Source: Micropterix aruncella
Lineage: Eukaryota > Arthropoda > Insecta > Lepidoptera > Micropterigidae
Length of the DNA: 64,000 nucleotides
Assembly: GCA_944548615.1 (NCBI GenBank)
Contig: OX155978.1
Coordinates: forward strand, 8,052,519 to 8,116,518
Direction of reading: 5' to 3'
Below the pieces are notes generated by a model. The model was not told the DNA's origin. It did no database searches and saw only the letters and a list, made by a program, of their open reading frames with translations. Positions 20,269-61,499 of the stretch are shown here, piece by piece (the stretch's first letter is position 1; every line of letters starts with the position of its first letter). A program made the position numbers and the translations under genes.

Positions 20269-21500
20269 GACATACACACTCTGGGGTGAGCCAGGGATCA
20301 AATCTGGGCCCAGTAGTGTTTAATTTGCTCGTGAATACATTTCCAGACGTGGTTACAAAAACCAACTGCTTTATTTTCGCGGATGACCTAAAATTATTCG
20401 CAAGAACGGGCAGTAATGAATCCTTTACATTACTGCAGGATGACAGACGCCGTTTATCTTTGGAGCATAAAACACAAGCTATACTTCAATACCAGCAAAT
20501 GTTCTATCATGACGCACTCGCGAGGTGACGCCCCGCTTGTACATAGTTATAACATTGAGGGCAAGGCACTATCACGAGTAAATCAAACAAGGGACCTAGG
20601 AATGACCTTTGACTCGCGGTTGACATACAGACAGCACATCTACACCCTAGTTGATAATTCTTACAAATTGCTAGGTTTTGTAATGAGGAGCATGAGACTG
20701 TTCAACAACACATTTGTCATGCGCCTCCTATTCGATTCCCTAATTCGGAGCGGATTAGAAGTCAACGCGGCAATATGGAGTCCTTACGAAAATAGTTACA
20801 TATCCAGGCTGGAGAGTATACAGAAACGATTTTTGAGGTTCCTTTAAACAGAATGGATATTATCCCTTTCTATATCCTACCGCATTTATTCTGGGGATGG
20901 TTGGGTACAACTCACTAAGCGTAAGAAGAGATTGTCTATTAAGAATCGGTCTGTTGTACCCGCCAATTACTACCGTGCTAGGACTCACGTATTGTTCGCG
21001 TTACCGTGAGCTAGAGCTAACATCGTTCAACACTGTTTCACGGTGCGGACGCTTCGTACCCTAAATGCACTTTGTTCGACTGAGCCAGAATTGGATATTT
21101 GGACGTTGAACTTAGCACAACTGCAAAGTAAGGTATGACATTTCTTAGCAATCAAGTAATTAGATAATTATGTAGTATGTAGTATTAAATTTTTTAAAAA
21201 GTAGTAACTAGTATAATAAGAAAGGTTAGATAAACATTAGATATATGTAAGTATAATCATTTAATATTACACTAAGGTATTTCTCTGTCTCGTTTGCTAT
21301 AGTGTAGAATAATAATCTATATATTAGAATAATAATGATAGTAATAGTAATGGAGTAGAGTAATAATAATATTATTAACAGTAGAATTATAATAATAGTC
21401 TATAGTAGAATAATAGTTATAATGTAGAATAATAGCCTAGAAAAATAATTAACTATTTGGAATCATCTGTAAGGTTACTTATGTTTTGGGAAATAAATAA
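20269..21500 (+). pseudogene. Jockey-like LINE ORF2 3' half, frameshifted
   Basis: Frame 1 (20286-20525) gives RT motif B as SQGSNLGPVVFNLLVN and motif C as CFIFADDLKLFA. After a frameshift near 20440 a second frame (20416-20847) continues: SKCSIMTHSR, RDLGMTFDSRLTYRQHIYTL, LGFVMRSMRLF and IWSPYENSYISRLESIQKRF. The C-terminal VPANY-RARTHVLFALPR block follows after a stop. Compared with the copy at 30441-32166 about 68 bp are missing near 20935. The 3' UTR ends GGGAAATAAATAAATAAATAG. Motif A and everything upstream are absent. Confidence 0.8.
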
Positions 21501-21554
21501 ATAAATAGGTTTTTTACACAGGTAAATATATTAAAATAAATAAAATAAAAAATA

Positions 21555-22145
21555 CGTGTGGCACTCGGGGACTGCCGCGGTAAAGCTATTGCATAGCATT
21601 TTTAACAACTTATGCAATTATAATTATTTATTTATTTTATTTTTTCTGATATCAGATAACTGCGCTCTATCGAAAAAAGTTGAAATTATTCCGAATCATT
21701 TGCGGCTGCGGTAGCAAATGATTCGGAATAATTTAAACGTCTTCCGATAGAGCGCCGCGCACGAATTTTTTATTCGATAAAGCAAAAAAACCGGATTATT
21801 CGAAAAAAATCGTAGATAAAAAGATAGATAATTAAATTATCCTTAAAATGGTGCAGGTTTCATAATAATACGCCAGATAGTATTTGCGTAGTAGTCGTTT
21901 TTGTGTTCGGTTAGACCTAATTTCACAAATTAATTACACTATGTAATATAAACAAAATCTAAAATATTCAAAGCTAAGAATATTAGGAAAATGTTTTTGT
22001 TTAACATATATTTTTTTCGAATCGTAAGCAGTACTCGTTTAGACGTAATTATCAGTTTACAATCATTAATTTTCGTTAAGAAATTTCTTCATTCGGTCGC
22101 CGCGCTGTCCTAGCTAGGCCCGCGATAAAAGCTATGCAATAGCTT
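21555..22145 (+). mobile_element. Unclassified element E, copy 2, with extra hairpin
   Basis: Same ends as copy 1 (CGTGTGGCACTCGGGG ... CAATAGCTT). Flanks AAAAATA (21548-21554) and AAAAACA (22146-22152) agree at 6 of 7 bases. It contains a perfect 19-bp inverted repeat, ATTATTCCGAATCATTTGC (21685-21703) and its complement (21714-21732), that is cleanly missing from copy 1. Inserted in the A-rich tail of a LINE. Confidence 0.7.
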
Positions 22146-22246
22146 AAAAACACGACTGCCGTTACTGAAAGTAAACTATTGTATTTATAATTATTTTAAT
22201 GACGGTTTTTAATGAAATTTTGTGGTTTCCGTATTTGTTCATATTG

Positions 22247-22458
22247 TGAAATCGAAGACTATCGCGGTTGTTTGACATTATAAATAGGATAGAAAACGAA
22301 TTTATCGCGTGAAATTTGTAGGACCCGACGTTTCGGTGACGTTGCAGCCGCCGTTGTCAAGGGTAAACTGGTAACAGTTTACCCTTGACAACGGCGGCTG
22401 CAACGTCACCGAAACGTCGGGTCCTACAAATTTCACGCGGTAAATTCGTTTTCTATCC
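22247..22458 (-). mobile_element. Palindromic PLE mini-element with 15-bp target duplication
   Basis: Arms (about 22283-22370 and 22375-22458) are PLE 3' ends joined head to head. The turn lies at GGGTAAACTG / CAGTTTACCC. The left side carries the long 3' tail, the right arm stops at TCTATCC. TATTTGTTCATATTG occurs directly before (22232-22246) and directly after (22459-22473), a perfect duplication showing the palindrome entered as a unit. Non-coding. Confidence 0.88.
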
Positions 22459-22594
22459 TATTTGTTCATATTGATATTTTCGGAATGTACTCAATCAGAC
22501 CTTTCATTTGACACTAATATATTAAAGAAAATATATCAAAAATAAATTAAAGAAATGGTTATCGAATCATAACAGACTAACCAAACATCAAATG

Positions 22595-23201
22595 TGTGAG
22601 AGTGGCCACCCTTCACTGGACTCCAATTGATCGTGAGCGAAGGGTGGTTCTCATCATGAAGTTTTCTCCGTGAATGAAAGTCGTGGATGTCGAAGTAGAA
22701 GCGTTTAATCAGAAGGTTGAAGTGAGTTGAGTTGAAGTCGCCAGTTCTTAACGCCTTGGTTGTCGATTCGCCGTTGTGCAGTAGTGTGGGCGTGAGGTGA
22801 AGCCGTGGCAGCGTGTCTGAAGTGTGTAGTCGAGGAGCGAGGCTTGACGATTGGAATCGCGGATAATGCAGGTACTGCTTGATAATGAAGTGTAGCGCGA
22901 TAACTGTCCACTGAGGGGACGATGTGTAGAGGTGTACTTGACCACCAAGGGAATGATATCGATCGATTGAAATGTACCACGTTTTATACCGTTAAGCGGT
23001 GACGTAAATAGCTATGAGTGGGGTGTAACATGTATATCGATTAGAAGAAATGACAGGAGTCATCGCTTGCCTGGGCATAATTTGCCAAATTTAGTTGGAA
23101 ATTAACTGCAGCTGGCTCGTGTAGGTTTGAGCGAGTCTGCGGTTTCTATTCTGTGAAATTACTTTTTTGTTGTGGGTATGTGGAGCGTCAGAGCTCCCAC
23201 A
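22595..23201 (-). mobile_element. Solo LTR of a gypsy-like element, copy 2 (distinct family)
   Basis: A 607-bp unit with ends TGTGAGAG / CTCCCACA in window orientation and a perfect 4-bp duplication AATG (22591-22594, 23202-23205). Read on the minus strand it starts TGTGGGAGCTC and ends near GGAGTCCAGTGAAGGGTGG, the same kind of end block as the other LTRs. The rest is diverged, so I treat it as a related but separate family. Minus-strand frames of 66-91 codons inside it are not genes by any evidence I see. Confidence 0.7.
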
Positions 23202-23239
23202 AATGTTAGAAATAATAGATTAATAAAATTTAGGTTCAC

Positions 23240-23806
23240 AAATTATTAACATATTTTAAAAAATGTATGTTGAGTATATTTTATAACATTGAACTAACTA
23301 CCAAAAATTATTTGACTTTGTTATTATATATTATTTTGACAATGAATTGTACTCTTTTTGACTAGATATTTTTATATTAAATCCTATATTACTTAACATA
23401 TTAAATATTAATGACCGTTTCTTTCTTTTCTCACATATAACTTTATTTGTATTATCTATTCGAATTTTATATTATATTTATGGCCGATTATATGGAATTG
23501 CATTTTATTTATTATATTATCTTTAAATATTTTTTATTATTATTATTATTTCGAAGACCACACTTTAGGGCAATTAGTGTTATTAGCTTTTTACTAAAAC
23601 TTGTATATTTGTAAGCAATCATGCAATCAAGCTTGATTGTAATATTAGAGTCCTGTTCACCCTGGAACGGGCTAGTCTCAGTTGGGTTACAATCAAATAA
23701 GCAAAAGGTTAAAGTTTTGCCATTCGATTCCTGTTTTGCGATTCGATCCAAATCAATGTTTTTAGTAATTAATTCTTAAATAAATAAATAAATAAATAAA
23801 CAAATT
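23240..23806 (+). mobile_element. LINE 3' UTR (family F), copy 1
   Basis: AT-rich sequence starting near AACATTGAACTAACTACC and ending (AAAT)n at 23778-23806. A line CCTGGAACGGGCTAGTCTCA precedes the tail, as in CR1-like LINE 3' UTRs. The first 300 bp repeat at 25550-25892. No coding part. Confidence 0.5.
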
Positions 23807-24689
23807 TAGACAAATATTTACTGGATATTTGAAGAGTTAAGTACTCTATGATACTACGGATGACCTAAGGATTCTAACAACAACACACTTCTAAATCGGA
23901 TCAAGCGTTGATAAGTTACGGTAGAATAAAGAAAAGGAATGCATACTTAGATGAATCCTGAACATATTACAATCCTTTTTTGTTGGGTTTGCAAAATAAA
24001 CATACATTATTAAGAGGCCGTACACGAAATTTTGCGCATTTCGTGAATTTACGTAATTTTGCAGACGTGTGAGCTACTTTTTTGAAAATTATTATAGAAT
24101 TTTGATTAATTGACCTTAAACCGGCGACTGTTTGTGAATTTTTGCTGTAAGAGGATTAGAATATAACATATTTACGAATCGTTTTGACATCTAAACGGTA
24201 TCACTTTTTACTCCTTTCATATAAAATTGTTGATAAAAAATTTATTAACTTTGTCAATTTTTTTAGAAAATGGGCGAAGAAATGCTTTTGATTTTGGCCT
24301 TTTAGAACTCTCGTTCATAAAATAAAAACCACAGAAATAAACTTTAGTTCAATATCAATCCATTTCCTCAAAAAAAAAATGCAAAACATTATTTAAAATT
24401 GGCAATAAAGTCTTTTAAAATAATCTAATTCTCGCGTTATGATACTCGCCTATGATACGATTCACGCTTCAAGTCAGCTAGTCCCCGCCGAGCGCTTCCA
24501 AAGGGTGGACGTATCTCTTTGGCTCCGAAAATCCTACCTACCTATAGTTATATTATACCATTGATTATAGAGGTATCACGGCCCACATCGATTTGGCCTC
24601 TTAAGAAACGATCGCTTTCGCTTTTACTTGTCATGCTTTTTTTTTTTACAGTATGGCCCCTTTTAACCGCCCCACCGCCCTCCCTTTCT
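23807..24689. other. No recognised gene or element
   Basis: Mostly AT-rich, without shared landmarks. A short GC-richer patch lies at 24485-24535. Frames at 24519-24791 overlap the start of an element A fragment and are not conserved. Confidence 0.4.
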
Positions 24690-33531: not shown

Positions 33532-34831
33532 TTATTTAAAATTAACAAACTCATCGATCGAGTAAAAAGCTTTGTCTAATAAGAATTCTTTAAGTAACTT
33601 TTTGAATAAGCTTTCCACTTGAATAGTTTTTAAACTTTCTGGTAGCCTGTTAAAGTAATATGGCCCTGAGTATTTTTTGTCTTGCCTTGCTGTGTTTAGT
33701 TTAATACATGGTATAAAAATGTTTAATTTATTTCTCGTATTTTTAGTATGTGTATCTGAAAACTTTTTATAATGTGTTTCTTTATTTTTAAAAAACTCAG
33801 TTAGTAACTTAAAGAGATAGAGTGAGGTTAAGGTGAGGATTCTTAGCCTTTTAAAAATGGGTCGACATGACTCTTCCCTTTTCACCTTTGCAATTATTCG
33901 CACTGCTCTCTTTTGGAGTATAAATATGGGTTCCCTATGACAAGCATAACAATTTCCCCAGATCGTAATGGCATAACTTAGGATAGCTTCAATATAGCTG
34001 AAATAAACATTTCTTGTTTGCAATTCATCCAAAGACCTTCTTACAATACTTAAAGCATAACATGCCCGACTTAACCTACTTTCGAGGTTTTCACAGTGAA
34101 AGTTCCATTTTAAAAGTTCGTCGACATGAACACCTAAAAATCTAGTACAATGAGTTTGAGGAATGGCAGTGTTATTTATTGAAAGTATTATTGGCGAACC
34201 TTTATTCCGATTTCAATGATTTGTAAAATGTATGAAGTTACTTTTAGACGCATTTAGTGTGAGGTTGTTGCTCTCAAACCAACTATTTAGTTTGAATAGA
34301 TTAATTTTAACGTTAATCAATAATTCTTCCATATCTTTACCGGCAACAATTAAACTAGTGTCGTCAGCAAACATCGTTACATTTATATCGTTGAAATACA
34401 TTGGTAAATCATTTACATATACTAAAAATAGAATAGGGCCCAAAATGGAACCCTGCGGGACTCCAAGTTTATTAGTTAAAGGGATCGAACAGTGTTTTGT
34501 AATGTTTTGATTTTGAAATTGTGTAATTTCCACTATTTGCGTCCTATTTGTTAAATATGAATCAAACCATTTTAAGCAGTCTCCCCTGACTCCATAATGA
34601 TTTAGTTTGTTTAGTAAAATATCATGCCTAACGCAATCAAATGCCTTACTCAAATCGCAAAAAATACCTAAGGTGTAGTACTTGTCCATTAGTTTGTTAT
34701 TTATATAAGATATGAAATCCTCGATAGCTTTAGTAGTGGACTTGTTTCGTCTATATCCAAATTGTCTTTCACTAAGAATATTGTTTGCATCAAAAAACGC
34801 AATTAATCTATTTTTAATTATAGTCTCTATG
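33532..34831 (-). pseudogene. LINE ORF2 reverse transcriptase, one stop, PLE insertion
   Basis: After removal of the PLE the frame reads from VIPLYKAGARTETGNFRPIA and SSFSKIIE (36325-36410) directly into TIIKNRL-FFDANNILSERQ (below 34831). RT motifs follow: A (IFCDLSKAFDCVRHDILLN), B (GVPQGSILGPILFLVYVNDL), C (TMFADDTSLIV), then RFLGVHVDELLKW and a C-terminus with NRLPESLK. A single in-frame TGA at 34211-34213 is the only stop I see, so the copy was nearly intact when the PLE arrived. It would have copied its own RNA by target-primed reverse transcription. CR1/Jockey group; exact clade not decided. Confidence 0.85.
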
Positions 34832-36312
34832 TTATAAATAGGATAGAAAACGAATTTACCGCGTGAAATTTGTAGGACCCGACGTTTCGGTGACGTTGCA
34901 GCCGCCGTTGTCTAGGGTAAACTGAAGAGCTGTCAGTCCGTTGTTTTGCGGGTAGGCCGCAAACCGCTGCTGCCACTGCGTAGGTTATAACGGTGGTGGG
35001 GGGCCGGGCTCGGAGCGCGGGAATTTTTAAAATCCGTCTTGCACACAACACTCACTGTATCCTGTTTTACGTCTTTGCGTTCGGCGTTCGGCGGCGGGAA
35101 CATTTTAAGAAGAGGGTTCCACGTAGAAGAGAGTTTGTAGCCGTCATCTCTATTGAAATTCGGAGTTCTTCTTATTTCAATGGCTTCCCGGATCATGCGA
35201 GGAAAGTAGAATTGTTCCTTGGATAGAACAATGGGATTTTGAAACTGCATCCAGTGGTTACTTCCGCTATCCAATATATGTTCGCAGATCGCCGATTTTT
35301 CTCGCTGAACGTTTTTAACAGCTTTGATGTGTTCTGTCAGTCGCGTGGCTATGGGCCGTTTCGTTTGTCCAACGTAGGCTAGACCGCAGCTGCATTCGAC
35401 TTTATACACACCCGGGGTTTGCAGTGGTATTACATCCTTTACAGGCCTCAAAAATCGAGCTATATTTTGGGTCGGTTTGAAGATCGTTTTTATATCGAAT
35501 CTGTTTAGCATCTTACTTATTCGATCTGTCACGCCCTTGACGTATGGTAAGAATGCTCTTGATCTGCTCGGTTTTTGAGTTTCGTCCGTATTAGATCGTG
35601 TGCGTGTCTCGTGATATTTTCCGTATCCATTTTTCCTAAGGACATCATTGACATGTTCCATCTCCTTCGGAAAATGCTCAGTGTCGCATAGATCGCGTGC
35701 TCGATTCACGAGCGACGTTTGCACTGAACGTAGATGGTAGGGATGATGGTGTGAGCTTGCATGCAAATATCTGTCCGTATGTGTGGGCTTCCGATATACC
35801 GTATGTCCGAGAGTATTGTCACTTCTCCTCGTCACTTTGACATCCAAAAATGGTAAGGAGCCGTCCTTCTCTACTTCATAGGTGAAACTGATTTTTGGGT
35901 GTATGGAGTTTAGATGACCCAGGAATTCTTTCACCGTTTGAATGTTGCCTTTCAGGATGCAGAAGGTATCATCCACGTAGCGAAGCCAGAGAATGGGTTT
36001 AATTTTGGAGGTTTTTATGGCTAATTCCTCAAAATATTCCATATATAGGTCACTAACTATCGGCGATACGGGGCATCCCATTGCTACTCCGTCGATTTGT
36101 TTGTAATAATCGCCGTTCCATAGAAAATAGCAGGATGTCAGGCAATGTTGAAGCATGTCGGCGTAGCTAATAGGGAGGTCCTCAGACCTTAGTTTATCTC
36201 TCACCACCGTAAGACACTCCGAAATGGGCAAATTCGTAAATAAAGATTCGACGTCAAAGCTCACCATTATTTCGTCTTCGGCCAGTTTTAAGCTTCGAGC
36301 CAGTTTTAAGCG
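34832..36312 (-). mobile_element. Penelope-like element (PLE), 5'-truncated
   Basis: A 1,481-bp insertion in the LINE RT, flanked by a perfect 12-bp duplication ATAGTCTCTATG (34820-34831, 36313-36324). It encodes RT plus GIY-YIG (34933-36312) and ends, on the minus strand, with the AACGGCGGCTGCAACGTCAC / CGAAACGTCGGGTCC / TTTCACGCGGTAAATTCG block and CCTATTTATAA. This 3' block is the one that forms the three palindromes in the window. The first part of the RT is missing. The 5' junction shows a doubled CTTAAAACTGGC. Confidence 0.9.
34933..36312 (-). CDS. PLE reverse transcriptase / GIY-YIG endonuclease, N-truncated
   Basis: Open from the element's 5' edge (36312) to the stop at 34933. Counting from the first methionine at 36267 (444 residues): RT motif A FDVESLFTNLP with its aspartate near 5; GVAMGCPVSPIVSDLYM near 60-76; LRYVDDTF near 95-102, the catalytic YVDD; LPFLDV near 128-133; then a linker and the GIY-YIG nuclease, GVYKVECSCGLAYVGQTKR near 286-304, with a later REAIEIRR. 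This order (Penelope-type RT followed by GIY-YIG) defines PLEs. The RT's amino-terminal motifs are missing, so the protein is not functional alone, but no internal stop or frameshift is seen. The methionine is internal, not a real start. Confidence 0.9.
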   Translation of the reverse strand, partial: RLKLARSLKLAEDEIMVSFDVESLFTNLPISECLTVVRDKLRSEDLPISYADMLQHCLTSCYFLWNGDYYKQIDGVAMGCPVSPIVSDLYMEYFEELAIKTSKIKPILWLRYVDDTFCILKGNIQTVKEFLGHLNSIHPKISFTYEVEKDGSLPFLDVKVTRRSDNTLGHTVYRKPTHTDRYLHASSHHHPYHLRSVQTSLVNRARDLCDTEHFPKEMEHVNDVLRKNGYGKYHETRTRSNTDETQKPSRSRAFLPYVKGVTDRISKMLNRFDIKTIFKPTQNIARFLRPVKDVIPLQTPGVYKVECSCGLAYVGQTKRPIATRLTEHIKAVKNVQREKSAICEHILDSGSNHWMQFQNPIVLSKEQFYFPRMIREAIEIRRTPNFNRDDGYKLSSTWNPLLKMFPPPNAERKDVKQDTVSVVCKTDFKNSRAPSPAPHHRYNLRSGSSGLRPTRKTTD

Positions 36313-36879
36313 ATAGTCTCTATGATTTTTGAGAAAGAAGACAAAATTGCAATTGGTCTAAAATTTCCAGTTTCAGTTCTTGCGCCTGCTTTATAGAGTG
36401 GAATCACTTTATAAAGCAAACGAAACGGTGTATTCCGAATCTATCGCAGACCACGGCATCCTTTGCCCGGCTGTTCACCCGGAATCGGACAGCCGGTGGT
36501 CGAGGACCGCGGACCGAGGACCGCGCAAGCGACCTCGCACTCGTAACCAGTCGGGAGACCGGAGTAATCTGGTCGCAACTGGAAGTAAGGGCGCGAGTGT
36601 CGGCCCGCTGGGTAACATACCTGTCTATCTCGCGGATAAAACGTTGGCCTCTTACGGGCATGTGGCAGAGCTTGACGGTTGTCTGTTTTGTCCTAAGTCT
36701 TCTGCGCTCACCTCACGGGAGATAGAACGATCATATTTAGTTAAAACTTCCTGGGGTGACAGGTTGGCCCGTTGTCGTTGACAGCTCTAGTTGCCTGTAT
36801 AAGCAGTCGCTTAAATGAAACAATTTAACTTATATGCGTAACCTTCTTAGATAACCAGAGCCTGTCGATTGCCATTGAA

Positions 36880-42976: not shown

Positions 42977-44706
42977 CTATTTATTTATTTATTTATTTAT
43001 TTATAGTATTACACAAGTTCGTTTGTACAGTTTACCATATCATGTTGTATATATATATATGAGACGTTAGCAAAAAACTGATTCTCGAGGAGATAGAGTA
43101 ATGATTAAAAGTCGCCTAACTAGGCCAGGGCCTGTTCTAAGGCAGACTTTATAAAATATTGTTTAGACGTATCTAATCAAATTACTAAATAATTATTATA
43201 TTTAAAAAAAATAAAAAATTAAAATTAAAACAATAAAAATTTGTAGAAATTCTATTACTTTGATAATAATTATTAACGTGTAGAGTAAAAGTAAAAATAT
43301 ATTTGAAAGTAAAAATATATGTCTAAAATTGAAGAATAATGCTAAAATTTAATATACAAAAAATTATTATACAATATTCAACAATCCATTGATGTTTTCT
43401 CTGCCTTCTGTAATAAGCCACCTAGAAACCGGTTTTTTAAATTTGTTTTTGGTTTCAATGCGTTTAACGACATCAGGCAGGTAGTTGTACATTCTCGGTG
43501 CTATGAAGTTAAAATGTCTCTGTCCGAAAGTCGTACGAGTTCTTGGCACTATCATATCGTCATTCTTTGCAGCTCTGGTGGGTCTCACTCGTGCGTTAAT
43601 AAGTGTCATTTTGAATTTTGCGTGTATCAAGGCTATCTTAATGTACAACAGTCTTGGGTCCAAAATATTACTATCTTTATATAACTGGTTCGTAGGATAT
43701 CGATACGGCTTCCGATCGATAATTTTTAGTATACACTTTTGCGCTACTTCAAGAGGCTGGAGGATAGTTGATGCACAACCACCCCACCCGATTATGCCAT
43801 AACAAAGAATGCTTTGGCATAATGCATAATAAAATAAAATAAAATAAAATAAAAAAAATAAAATAAAAATATGTATTTTTTAGTGTTTCCGGGTCTAAAA
43901 TATTTCTCACTTCGCGGAATACGTAGGAAAGTTTTCGAACCTTACTTGTCAACATCTCAATGTGCTTTTGCCAACGCAGCATATTATCAATTATTATTCC
44001 GAGATATTTTACGTGTTCTGTCCTTTCCAGGAAAGGGCAGTTACATTGCTGTGTATTTTTACATGAGTGAATAGTTACGGTATGATATGGTGATGGTTGT
44101 CCTTTATTATTATTACTAAAAGTTATATATTTCGTTTTTTTAATATTTAGGCTAAGAAGAGATTCATCTAACCATTCACGTCCTTGATTAATACCAGCAT
44201 TGGCTGCACAGAAAGTGTCCCTCCAGGTATGCCAATCAAAGATAATGTCTGTGTCATCAGCAAAAGAAATGGTTTTCCCCACCAGATCGCATAATTTATT
44301 TATGTAAATGAGAAATAAAATAGGCCCGAGAACACTACCCTGAGGAACGCCAAATGGCAGGTCTTCCGGTTTGCTGGTTACATTATTAATGGTGATAATT
44401 TGTTTTCTATTTTGCAAATAGGTCTTAAACCAGTTGAGTGTGACATGCTGGATTCCAACTTCCCCCAACCTCCGAATGAGCTTATCGTGCGAGACCGTAT
44501 CGAATGCCTTTGCGAGATCCAAGAAAACAGCTATGCACTTTTTATCCTCATCCACATTGCAATTAATAATACGTGTCACTTCTGCGATTGCATCAGTTGT
44601 GCCAATGCCTTCTCTAAACCCAAACTGGTTATTAGATAAAAGATTGTTTTCTTTTAAATATTTCAGAACACGTTTTTTTGCGACTTTCTCTATAATTACT
44701 CTATAA
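42977..44706 (-). pseudogene. LINE (family G-like) ORF2 with complete RT core, broken
   Basis: A 329-codon frame (43749-44738; true LINE sequence starts near 44706) covers IIEKVAKKRVLKYLKENNLL, FGFREGIGTTDAIAEVTRII, motif A (AVFLDLAKAFDTVSHDKLI), motif B (GVPQGSVLGPILFLIYINKL), motif C (SFADDTDII) and KYLGIIIDNMLRWQKHIEML. At 43829-43870 an (AAAAT)n run interrupts the frame. The C-terminus resumes at 43367-43663 with RTTFGQRHFNFIAPRMYNYL. The 3' UTR carries the double hairpin (about 43110-43150) and the (TTTA)n tail begins at 42979. Flanks AATACTAT / AATAACTAT may be the target duplication. Endonuclease missing. Confidence 0.85.
43829..43870 (-). repeat. (AAAAT)n microsatellite inside the LINE reading frame
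   Basis: About eight AAAAT units with one A-rich interruption lie between codons for NTYF and ALCQSILCYGIIGWGGC. The length throws the downstream part into another frame. Confidence 0.85.
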
Positions 44707-45159
44707 TAACTATATCTACAGGATACGCTCAGACTCATTATAAATACTAAGATATTAACGGTTGGTCTAGTTTGATATAATTCCTACTTATTGTAACAGT
44801 AACGTTAAATATTTCGACATTGAATCCACATTTCAGGTATGTTCCAGGAAATGGAAAAAACCCATGCCTATAATTCAAAAACTCAAAATATTTATTTTGT
44901 TAAGGTATTTCATATCAAAAATAGACAAAGAAAATTTATAAATATTGTAGTAAAGTCGAACTCAAAAATGGTACAATTCAGGGATCGATATTAGGTCCAA
45001 TAATATATCTATAAGATATGCTCAGACTGATAATAGACACTTAGAAACTAAAGATCGAGGTAGGTTCATATAAGCCTTAATTATGGTAACAGTTGTATTT
45101 CGACATTGGATATAGAAAGTAAGTTCAGAAAATAATAACTTTCATGCAAATATATCAAA

Positions 45160-57398: not shown

Positions 57399-57741
57399 AA
57401 AATCGAAGACTATCGCAGTTGTTTGACATTATAAATAGGATATAAAACGAATTTACCGCGTGAAATTTGTAGCACCCGACGTTTCGGTGACGTTGCAGCC
57501 GCCGTTGTCCAGGGTAGACTGAAGAGCTGTCAATCCGTTGTTTTGCGGGTAGGCCGCGTACCGCTTCCGTCACTGCGTAGGTTATAACGGTGGTGGGGGG
57601 CCGGGCTCGGAGCGCGGGAATTTTGAAAATCCGTCTTGCACACAACACTCACTGTATCCTGTTTTACGTCTTTGCGTTCGGCGTTCGGCGGCGGGAACAT
57701 TTTAAGAAGAGGGTTCCACGTAGAAGAGACGACGGTTACAA
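57399..57741 (-). mobile_element. PLE 3' fragment with a fold-back at its 5' edge
   Basis: On the minus strand it holds the last about 70 codons of the PLE protein (NPLLKMFPPPNAERK ...) and the complete 3' end through AATTTCACGCGGTAAATTCG to the long tail (AATCGAAGACTATCGCAG in window orientation). At its truncated end (57727-57741) the sequence reverses: CGACGGTTACAAACTCTCT is the complement of the PLE stretch AGAGAGTTTGTAGCCGTC, one mismatch, that should have come next. Confidence 0.8.
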
Positions 57742-57935
57742 ACTCTCTCTCCTCCGGTGAGGGAACTCCTCAACGGTCAACAGCAGAGACTCAAAATTGT
57801 GTACGCTTTCAATTATGATAGCAACTTTCAAGTTTGACCATGACATGGCTGATGTACCCTGGGTTGGCTCTAGACAAGGGAACTTCTCAACGGTTAACAG
57901 CAGACACAAAATTCGAAAAGTCCTAAAAGTCAAAA
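57742..57935. mobile_element. Element A central subrepeats, fragment
   Basis: Two units: GGGAACTCCTCAACGGTCAA ... CAATTATGATAGC ... CATGACATGGCTG, then GGGAACTTCTCAACGGTTAA. Period about 110-120 bp, as at 50985-51260. No arms attached. Confidence 0.65.
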
Positions 57936-61272: not shown

Positions 61273-61284
61273 TACAATATGATA

Positions 61285-61487
61285 TTATAAATAGGACAGA
61301 AAACGAATTTACCGCGTGAAATTTGTAGGACCCGACGTTTCGGTGACGTTGCAGCCGCCGTTGTCTAGGGTAGACAACGGCGGCTGCAACGTCACCGAAA
61401 CGTCGGGTCCTACAAATTTCACGCGGTAAATTCGTTTTCTGTCCTATTTATAATGTCAAACAACCGCGATAGTCTTCGATTTTATAT
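61285..61487 (+). mobile_element. Palindromic PLE mini-element with 12-bp target duplication
   Basis: Head-to-head PLE 3' ends turning at TTGTCTAGGGTAGACAA (about 61360-61376). Arms of about 85 bp are almost perfect. The right side carries the long tail (TGTCAAACAACCGCGATAG), the left begins at TTATAAATAGG. TACAATATGATA flanks it on both sides (61273-61284, 61488-61499), a perfect duplication of the same length as that of the large PLE. Confidence 0.9.
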
Positions 61488-61499
61488 TACAATATGATA

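Follow-up and report, generated by a model that had tools for sequence, protein, structure and literature searches.

The insertion at positions 22232-22473 of the window (the whole 64-kb stretch of Micropterix aruncella DNA that was analysed) consists of two head-to-head ends of a Penelope-like element (PLE). Palindromes of this kind are most likely the products of two-sided target-primed reverse transcription by the element, a reading to which we assign a probability of about 0.8.

The insert is 212 bp long and is located between perfect 15-bp direct repeats (TATTTGTTCATATTG). The two copies of the repeat, at 22232-22246 and 22459-22473 (plus strand), are identical, in agreement with the target-site duplication described by the first-pass annotation. 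By a rough estimate, the chance of such a repeat around the palindrome is about 1e-6. The same annotation spoke of a 212-bp palindrome. This length is correct for the insert, but the palindromic part is shorter, a 182-bp inverted repeat with a 4-nt centre. Its arms (22282-22370 and 22375-22463) are 99% complementary, and the 4 nt between them (GTAA, 22371-22374) are filler at the putative cDNA joint.

The long arm (22247-22370, with the element sense on the minus strand) is made up of the PLE leader (pLTR) and a tail. The aligner ends this arm at 22249, and the final 2 nt fit a tail variant, ...CGATTTCATA, by eye. The tail corresponds to the ~35 leftmost nt of the insert (22247-22281, minus strand), which have no mirror partner, and it contains the first codons of an ORF, ATG TCA AAC AAC CGC GAT AGT CTT CGA TTT (with the reading frame taken from another copy, L162). 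The short arm (22375-22463, plus strand) is the same leader without the tail, and its last 5 nt (TATTT) overlap with the right copy of the duplication.

Rfam matches to micro-RNA hairpins at the palindrome (mir-1803, mir-153, mir-2968 and mir-540) are all below the gathering scores, and a micro-RNA identity was rejected, as hairpin shape alone explains such sub-threshold matches. A chance origin of the palindrome is excluded by the perfect flanking repeats together with the many parallel cases (see below). Another imperfect inverted repeat (94 bp, 85%) is found 500 bp to the left of the insert, at 21662-21755. It does not resemble a PLE end by eye.

The arms match the end of a PLE copy with a truncated ORF (34933-36267, minus strand) in the same window. 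The Pfam reverse transcriptase family (PF00078) is matched by the ORF (34936-36267) with an E value of 5.1e-07 and 30 bits, compared to a cut-off of 29.6, and a single weak match is found in the PDB, to an RNA-directed DNA polymerase (E 0.0007). This reverse transcriptase is probably of the PLE type. Homologous proteins number 2,757, and where a source is named in the 120 listed it is mostly a lepidopteran, with flies, beetles, bees and lizards as the others. A candidate GIY-YIG motif (GVYKVECSCGLAYVGQT) is recognized by eye in the ORF and is similar in the relatives, and Pfam places no family on the C-terminal part (to E 5). No hammerhead ribozyme is present among the Rfam matches to E 5 for positions 21000-24000, a search that a diverged or protein-assisted form could escape.

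The identity of the tail is seen in the tandem copy L162, where the leader is followed by ATG TCA AAC AAC CGC GAT AGT CTT CGA TTT TAT and the open frame MSNNRDSLRFYITSLYGEEVSYKV... The tail encodes MSNNRDSLRF, the start of the element's own ORF. The first-pass annotation had regarded this arm end as the full 3' tail of the element; it is formed instead by the opening codons of the ORF unit that follows, and not by the end of a 3' UTR. The short end adjoins the ATG, and the long end is located about ten codons into the ORF. The element thus has the pLTR arrangement, with tandem and inverted copies and an optional tail of ~30 nt inside the start of the ORF.

The best 95 of 27,892 candidates from a protein search are nearly identical copies of the ORF. 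The 444-residue part of the ORF is 100% identical in these 95 listed copies, some of which belong to open frames as long as 912 residues. Such identity suggests very recent movement of the element within this genome. Two inspected copies with a 910-residue open frame (C5 and C6) are each preceded by the end of another ORF. A further copy, L141, contains only part of the ORF, beside other sequence.

Two more palindromes are found in the window, at 71-237 and 61273-61499 (arms 61280-61486). Both have the short arm on the left and the long arm on the right, and their centres are different. The former is flanked by an imperfect duplication, TTACTTGAT (61-69) and TTACATGAT (239-247), with 8 of 9 positions matching, and the latter by TACAATATGATA at 61273 and 61488.

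The window also contains two 5'-truncated copies on the minus strand. The first (34820-36324) bears the ORF described above, ends at the short site (34832), and is flanked by ATAGTCTCTATG at 34820 and 36313. At its 5' junction (36310-36319), 10 nt (GCGATAGTCT) match the tail of the element by eye, 7 of them within the duplication, and these may represent a stub-like second arm. The second copy (57400-57749) ends at the long site, and no duplication is recognizable around it. At its 5' junction (57700-57790), ~20 nt of its own sequence are inverted, by eye a small scrap of snap-back appearance. In addition, apparent pieces of other reverse-transcriptase genes are located at 33532-34689 and 43749-44738, and the PLE copy at 34832 appears to be nested in the first of these.

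A genome search for further palindromes of this end had been proposed in the first-pass annotation, and it proved productive. With a pattern in which a 17-base core (CCGAAACG) faces a second copy of itself, at least 2,068 head-to-head palindromes with exact cores are found in the 1.08-Gb genome, while the reversed control pattern gives 0. By centre length, there are 71 (0-30), 1,496 (31-60) and 501 (61-90) palindromes. These counts are lower bounds, as cores with any change are missed and centre lengths up to 90 are covered. The tail-to-tail arrangement has 1 match for gaps of 100-130, a range that spans an abutting short and long arm and not two abutting long arms. The core pattern gives 0 matches in viral contigs.

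For a detailed comparison, 130 palindromes were fetched with patterns blind to the tail, corresponding to 50 of the 71, 50 of the 1,496 and 30 of the 501 in the three classes of centre length. They are the first listed in each class, so the sample is weighted by centre length, with the 31-60 and 61-90 classes coming from contigs C1-C2 only. Three of them are segmental duplicates of others, as judged by their flanks. A larger set of 140 includes 7 palindromes from a tail-containing query and the 3 in the window. These extra 10 are all long/short and are left out of the count of 130.

Nearly every palindrome has one long end, with the tail, and one short end, without it. The first-pass annotation had noted a tail on one arm only, and the unpaired segment at 22247-22281 is matched by the same arrangement in 129 of the 130 tail-blind palindromes. 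Among these, 127 are assigned by a fixed tail score and two (L011 and L087) by eye, where the tail is present with an internal deletion. None of the 130 is long/long and one (L062) is short/short. If the start for each arm were chosen independently, only about 50% would be expected to be long/short. With the segmental duplicates removed, 124 of 127 are long/short by score.

The tail score per arm is bimodal (5-12 or 17-24). In alignments to the outward reference, the long ends are at 85-92 and most of the short ends at 55-62. Two palindromes were misjudged by the aligner, L120 due to a deletion and L122 due to a double centre; both are long/short by tail score and by eye. The short arms usually share a single end point, at which the one-armed copy at 34832 ends as well. 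In 5 of the 130 palindromes (L043, L048, L087, L089 and L092), the short arm is truncated well before this proximal start. L122 has a triple arrangement, with two successive leader palindromes whose outer ends are one short and one long, within one duplication.

The ORF-bearing copies can be compared in the same manner. Among the 95 listed ORF copies there are, by eye, 10 head-to-head pairs within 6 kb, 3 tandem pairs and 0 tail-to-tail pairs, and the spacing of the tandem pairs is exactly 2,614 bases in all three. The outer ends of the kilobase-scale head-to-head pairs are tail/no tail in 9 of the 10, where the ends of C5a, C20 and C23b were judged by eye (the anchor used by the script is altered there). 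In the C5a and C23b pairs, the tailless arm is cut further in. The tenth pair (C30) is short/short, and a third copy is located in tandem next to it. Duplications around these pairs were identified in 7 cases by script and for C20 and C23b by eye, and C5a, in an AT repeat, is not judgeable. Arms of 90-125 nt and arms exceeding 1 kb therefore follow the same end rule. It has exceptions, because both L062 and the C30 pair are short/short.

Target-site duplications are expected when Penelope-like elements insert, and in 118 of the 140 palindromes the flanks contain an exact one that is 10 nt or longer, compared to 4 of 694 when the left and right flanks are taken from different loci. This bears out the suggestion of the first-pass annotation that the head-to-head ends were inserted as a unit. 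The duplications are 12-15 nt long in 109 of the 118 cases, and one, in an AT repeat, is 38 nt long. The other 22 palindromes have no exact 10-nt duplication, and some of them have imperfect ones by eye. For the 117 loci with duplications of 10-16 nt, an A-rich motif is common to the sequences upstream of both primer ends. It is located 11-16 nt from the 3' end of the primer, about where the opposite strand is cut. One activity seems to cut both target strands, because the primers of the long and short ends are alike in this context.

The inner ends of the arms are less uniform. The most common position, used by 125 of 280 arms of both types, is at a TCAGTY site, 32-35 nt upstream of the core. 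Inner ends at 31-36 are found for 62 of 100 arms in the 31-60 class and 47 of 60 arms in the 61-90 class, and there are further common inner stops, for example at 20 nt from the core. We take the TCAGTY site to resemble the arthropod initiator, and because of this likeness it would correspond to the 5' end of the RNA.

Among the 140 centres, 59 contain filler, 53 have an overlap of 0-1 nt, and 28 have an overlap of at least 2 nt. A hairpin primer (overlap ≥2 nt, loop ≥3 nt) is compatible with 16 of the 81 filler-free centres. The other 65 are incompatible with it, 53 for their overlap of 0-1 nt and 12 for a loop of less than 3 nt in spite of the overlap. Perfect loop-free centres are also observed (for example in L024 and L012). 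Five palindromes in different places (L024, L034, L059, L063 and L064) have one and the same perfect 20/20 centre without overlap, and L041 carries this centre with one change, which suggests that the position 20 nt from the core is a strong stop point for the polymerase.

Identical centres can have the long and short ends swapped, as seen by eye for L010 compared to L025, and, after orientation by arm, for L089 and L096 compared to L044, L048, L082 and the third palindrome of the window. As the same centre has opposite long/short assignments, the palindromes form anew, with equal centres arising repeatedly. The deeper arm is the short one in 47 palindromes and the long one in 29 (p 0.05, borderline), with the reverse in the 61-90 class (0 versus 8). 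A deeper short arm would fit, weakly, with a leading and a following enzyme.

The allele at a variable site is shared between the two arms in all 47 tail-blind, non-duplicate palindromes scored by script, compared to 59% expected if they were independent. For all 140 loci the agreement is 57 of 57, with 47% expected, but eight of these loci had been selected for their resemblance to the window copy and inflate one allele, so that 47 of 47 is the fair figure. Of 63 eligible cases, six escaped the pattern of the script, and all six agree by eye. This concordance argues against RNAs drawn independently from separate source copies. It would be expected alike from a single RNA, from a pair of sister RNAs, and from a second arm that is copied from the first.

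In the mechanism proposed here, the endonuclease would make a staggered cut in the target, leaving 3' overhangs of ~12-15 nt on both sides, and each target 3' end would prime cDNA synthesis on the element RNA near the start of the ORF, presumably simultaneously. One strand would start at the distal site (~ten codons into the ORF), producing the long end, and the other at the proximal site ~32 nt upstream, next to the AUG, producing the short end. Both cDNAs would then be extended toward the 5' end of the RNA. On an ordinary mRNA, this putative 5' end is reached ~90-125 nt from the starts, giving two short leader cDNAs, and leader palindromes are the expected common product because of this short distance. 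On a read-through RNA from tandem copies, the cDNAs could include the ORF. ORF copies would need such an RNA, and C5 and C6, each preceded by the end of another ORF, fit with this. The 3' ends of the cDNAs would be joined bluntly, by microhomology of 1-6 nt, or with filler, possibly by host end-joining, and fill-in of the overhangs would give rise to the target duplication.

Both strands probably prime on one RNA. The simplest reason for each start being used once is that, on a single RNA, the first use occupies it. Two-sided priming with one start per strand explains the outer ends, the duplications, the allele concordance and the free choice of centre. We lean slightly toward a stricter scheme, in which PLEs integrate by obligatory two-sided priming on a single RNA, with two reverse transcriptases in file and each start tied to one strand, the leader palindromes being mRNA run-off products and the ORF copies arising via read-through. 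If true, this obligatory scheme would unite the tail, the inverted pLTRs, the tandem copies and the palindromes. On the other hand, the short/short cases (L062 and C30), the five short arms that are cut further in, and the 22 of 140 palindromes without an exact duplication weigh against the best explanation, and the filler in 59 of the 140 centres could hide other steps.

A different origin of the second arm was suggested in the first-pass annotation, namely that a tail-primed cDNA folds back, primes itself and copies the first arm. Such a snap-back accounts for the identical arms and their head-to-head order, and self-priming on an antisense template has been proposed for Penelope palindromes (Arkhipova 2013, PMC3846280). 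It predicts, however, that the second arm carries the tail and inverted flanking sequence, rather than stopping at the proximal start. The second arm is tailless in 129 of 130 palindromes and usually ends at one fixed place, and both ends have the same target context. The centres fit a hairpin primer in 16 of 140 cases, and the 59 with filler could conceal a hairpin step, but the 65 unsuitable filler-free centres and the perfect loop-free ones do not agree with it, making snap-back an improbable source of these structures. A palindromic master copy, transcribed and reinserted whole with its ends kept, like a MITE or SINE, would let the long and short ends be inherited, and the 20/20 centre shared by five unlinked loci, and by L041 with one change, would be expected from it. 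Such a copy is nevertheless very unlikely, given the many different centres, the location of the examined recurrent ones at microhomologies or common stops, the swapped ends around the same centre, and the validity of one rule for both short (90-125 nt) and long (more than 1 kb) arms.

Some libraries are known to produce palindromes as artefacts. A later rearrangement or an assembly artefact (an inverted duplication or a chimeric read) has nonetheless hardly any probability here, in view of the 2,068 exact-core cases with many different centres and the duplications around the whole unit in 118 of 140. A foldback or MITE DNA transposon was also rejected, as the ends are unequal, the centres are variable, and the arms are the leader of an element that encodes a reverse transcriptase. 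A possible, though doubtful, alternative retains two-sided priming and involves two RNAs on an asymmetric protein dimer, with one subunit per start. It accounts for the long/short rule no less well than a single RNA, but the allele agreement in 47 of 47 palindromes (59% expected) would require that the two RNAs nearly always come from the same locus. In support of a dimer, the Anolis protein is predicted to be one (by AlphaFold2, according to its authors, PMC11167929).

Many of the features described here have counterparts in the Pen families of the rotifer Adineta vaga, for which parts of the published account (Arkhipova 2013, PMC3846280) describe head-to-head inverted pLTRs, palindromic inverted junctions, tandem copies, target duplications of 8, 9 and 10 bp, and an optional 31-bp tail on one inverted pLTR, inside the start of the ORF. 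The element in the current study is similar in its head-to-head pLTRs, short duplications, one-sided tail in the ORF start, palindromes and tandem copies. In contrast to the few copies in that account, where self-priming on an antisense template was proposed, more than 2,000 leader-only palindromes can be counted here, exactly one end is tailed in 129 of the 130 compared, and self-priming is at odds with 65 of the 81 filler-free centres.

Biochemical data are available for the Poseidon element PAc of Anolis carolinensis (Frangieh 2024, PMC11167929, in the sections consulted). Reverse transcription in vitro has two adjacent internal starts that bound the tail, and the protein cuts and extends both target strands, with a preference for AT-rich targets. 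No difference in start site is reported between the top and bottom strands, and in those sections the two starts are not linked to the strands or to inverted pLTRs. The current element is similar in having two putative starts near the ORF start that bound a tail, in the probable use of both strands, and in the preference for AT-rich targets. PAc has a hammerhead ribozyme, whereas none is found here in 21000-24000. The lack of a strand difference in what is reported for PAc does not predict an obligatory division of the starts, and it counts against a strict rule.

Here both strands would start within ~32 nt of each other, and the product is a palindrome, unlike that of L1 twin priming. The second primer of L1 initiates elsewhere within the RNA, so that the two halves are inverted and are not mirror copies. 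By the twin-priming model, one RNA would serve as template for primers on both strands of the target, giving inverted inserts within a duplication (PMC2837659). The passages on Penelope in a 2026 paper on Drosophila virilis (PMC12910113) leave the inverted structure untreated. A one-long-one-short rule, or two-sided priming as the source of inverted pLTRs, is absent from the titles and the beginnings of abstracts in a literature search that covered few subscription journals and preprints.

The genome thus holds some two thousand natural insertion products, and both ends, the priming sites and the join are usually readable in those examined. The palindromes speak for priming from both target strands, with a strict division of the two starts between them. 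The model is reduced to simple counts, and any genome that carries such elements would allow them to be made again. Moreover, the rule predicts inverted products, which is relevant to the use of these enzymes for gene insertion.
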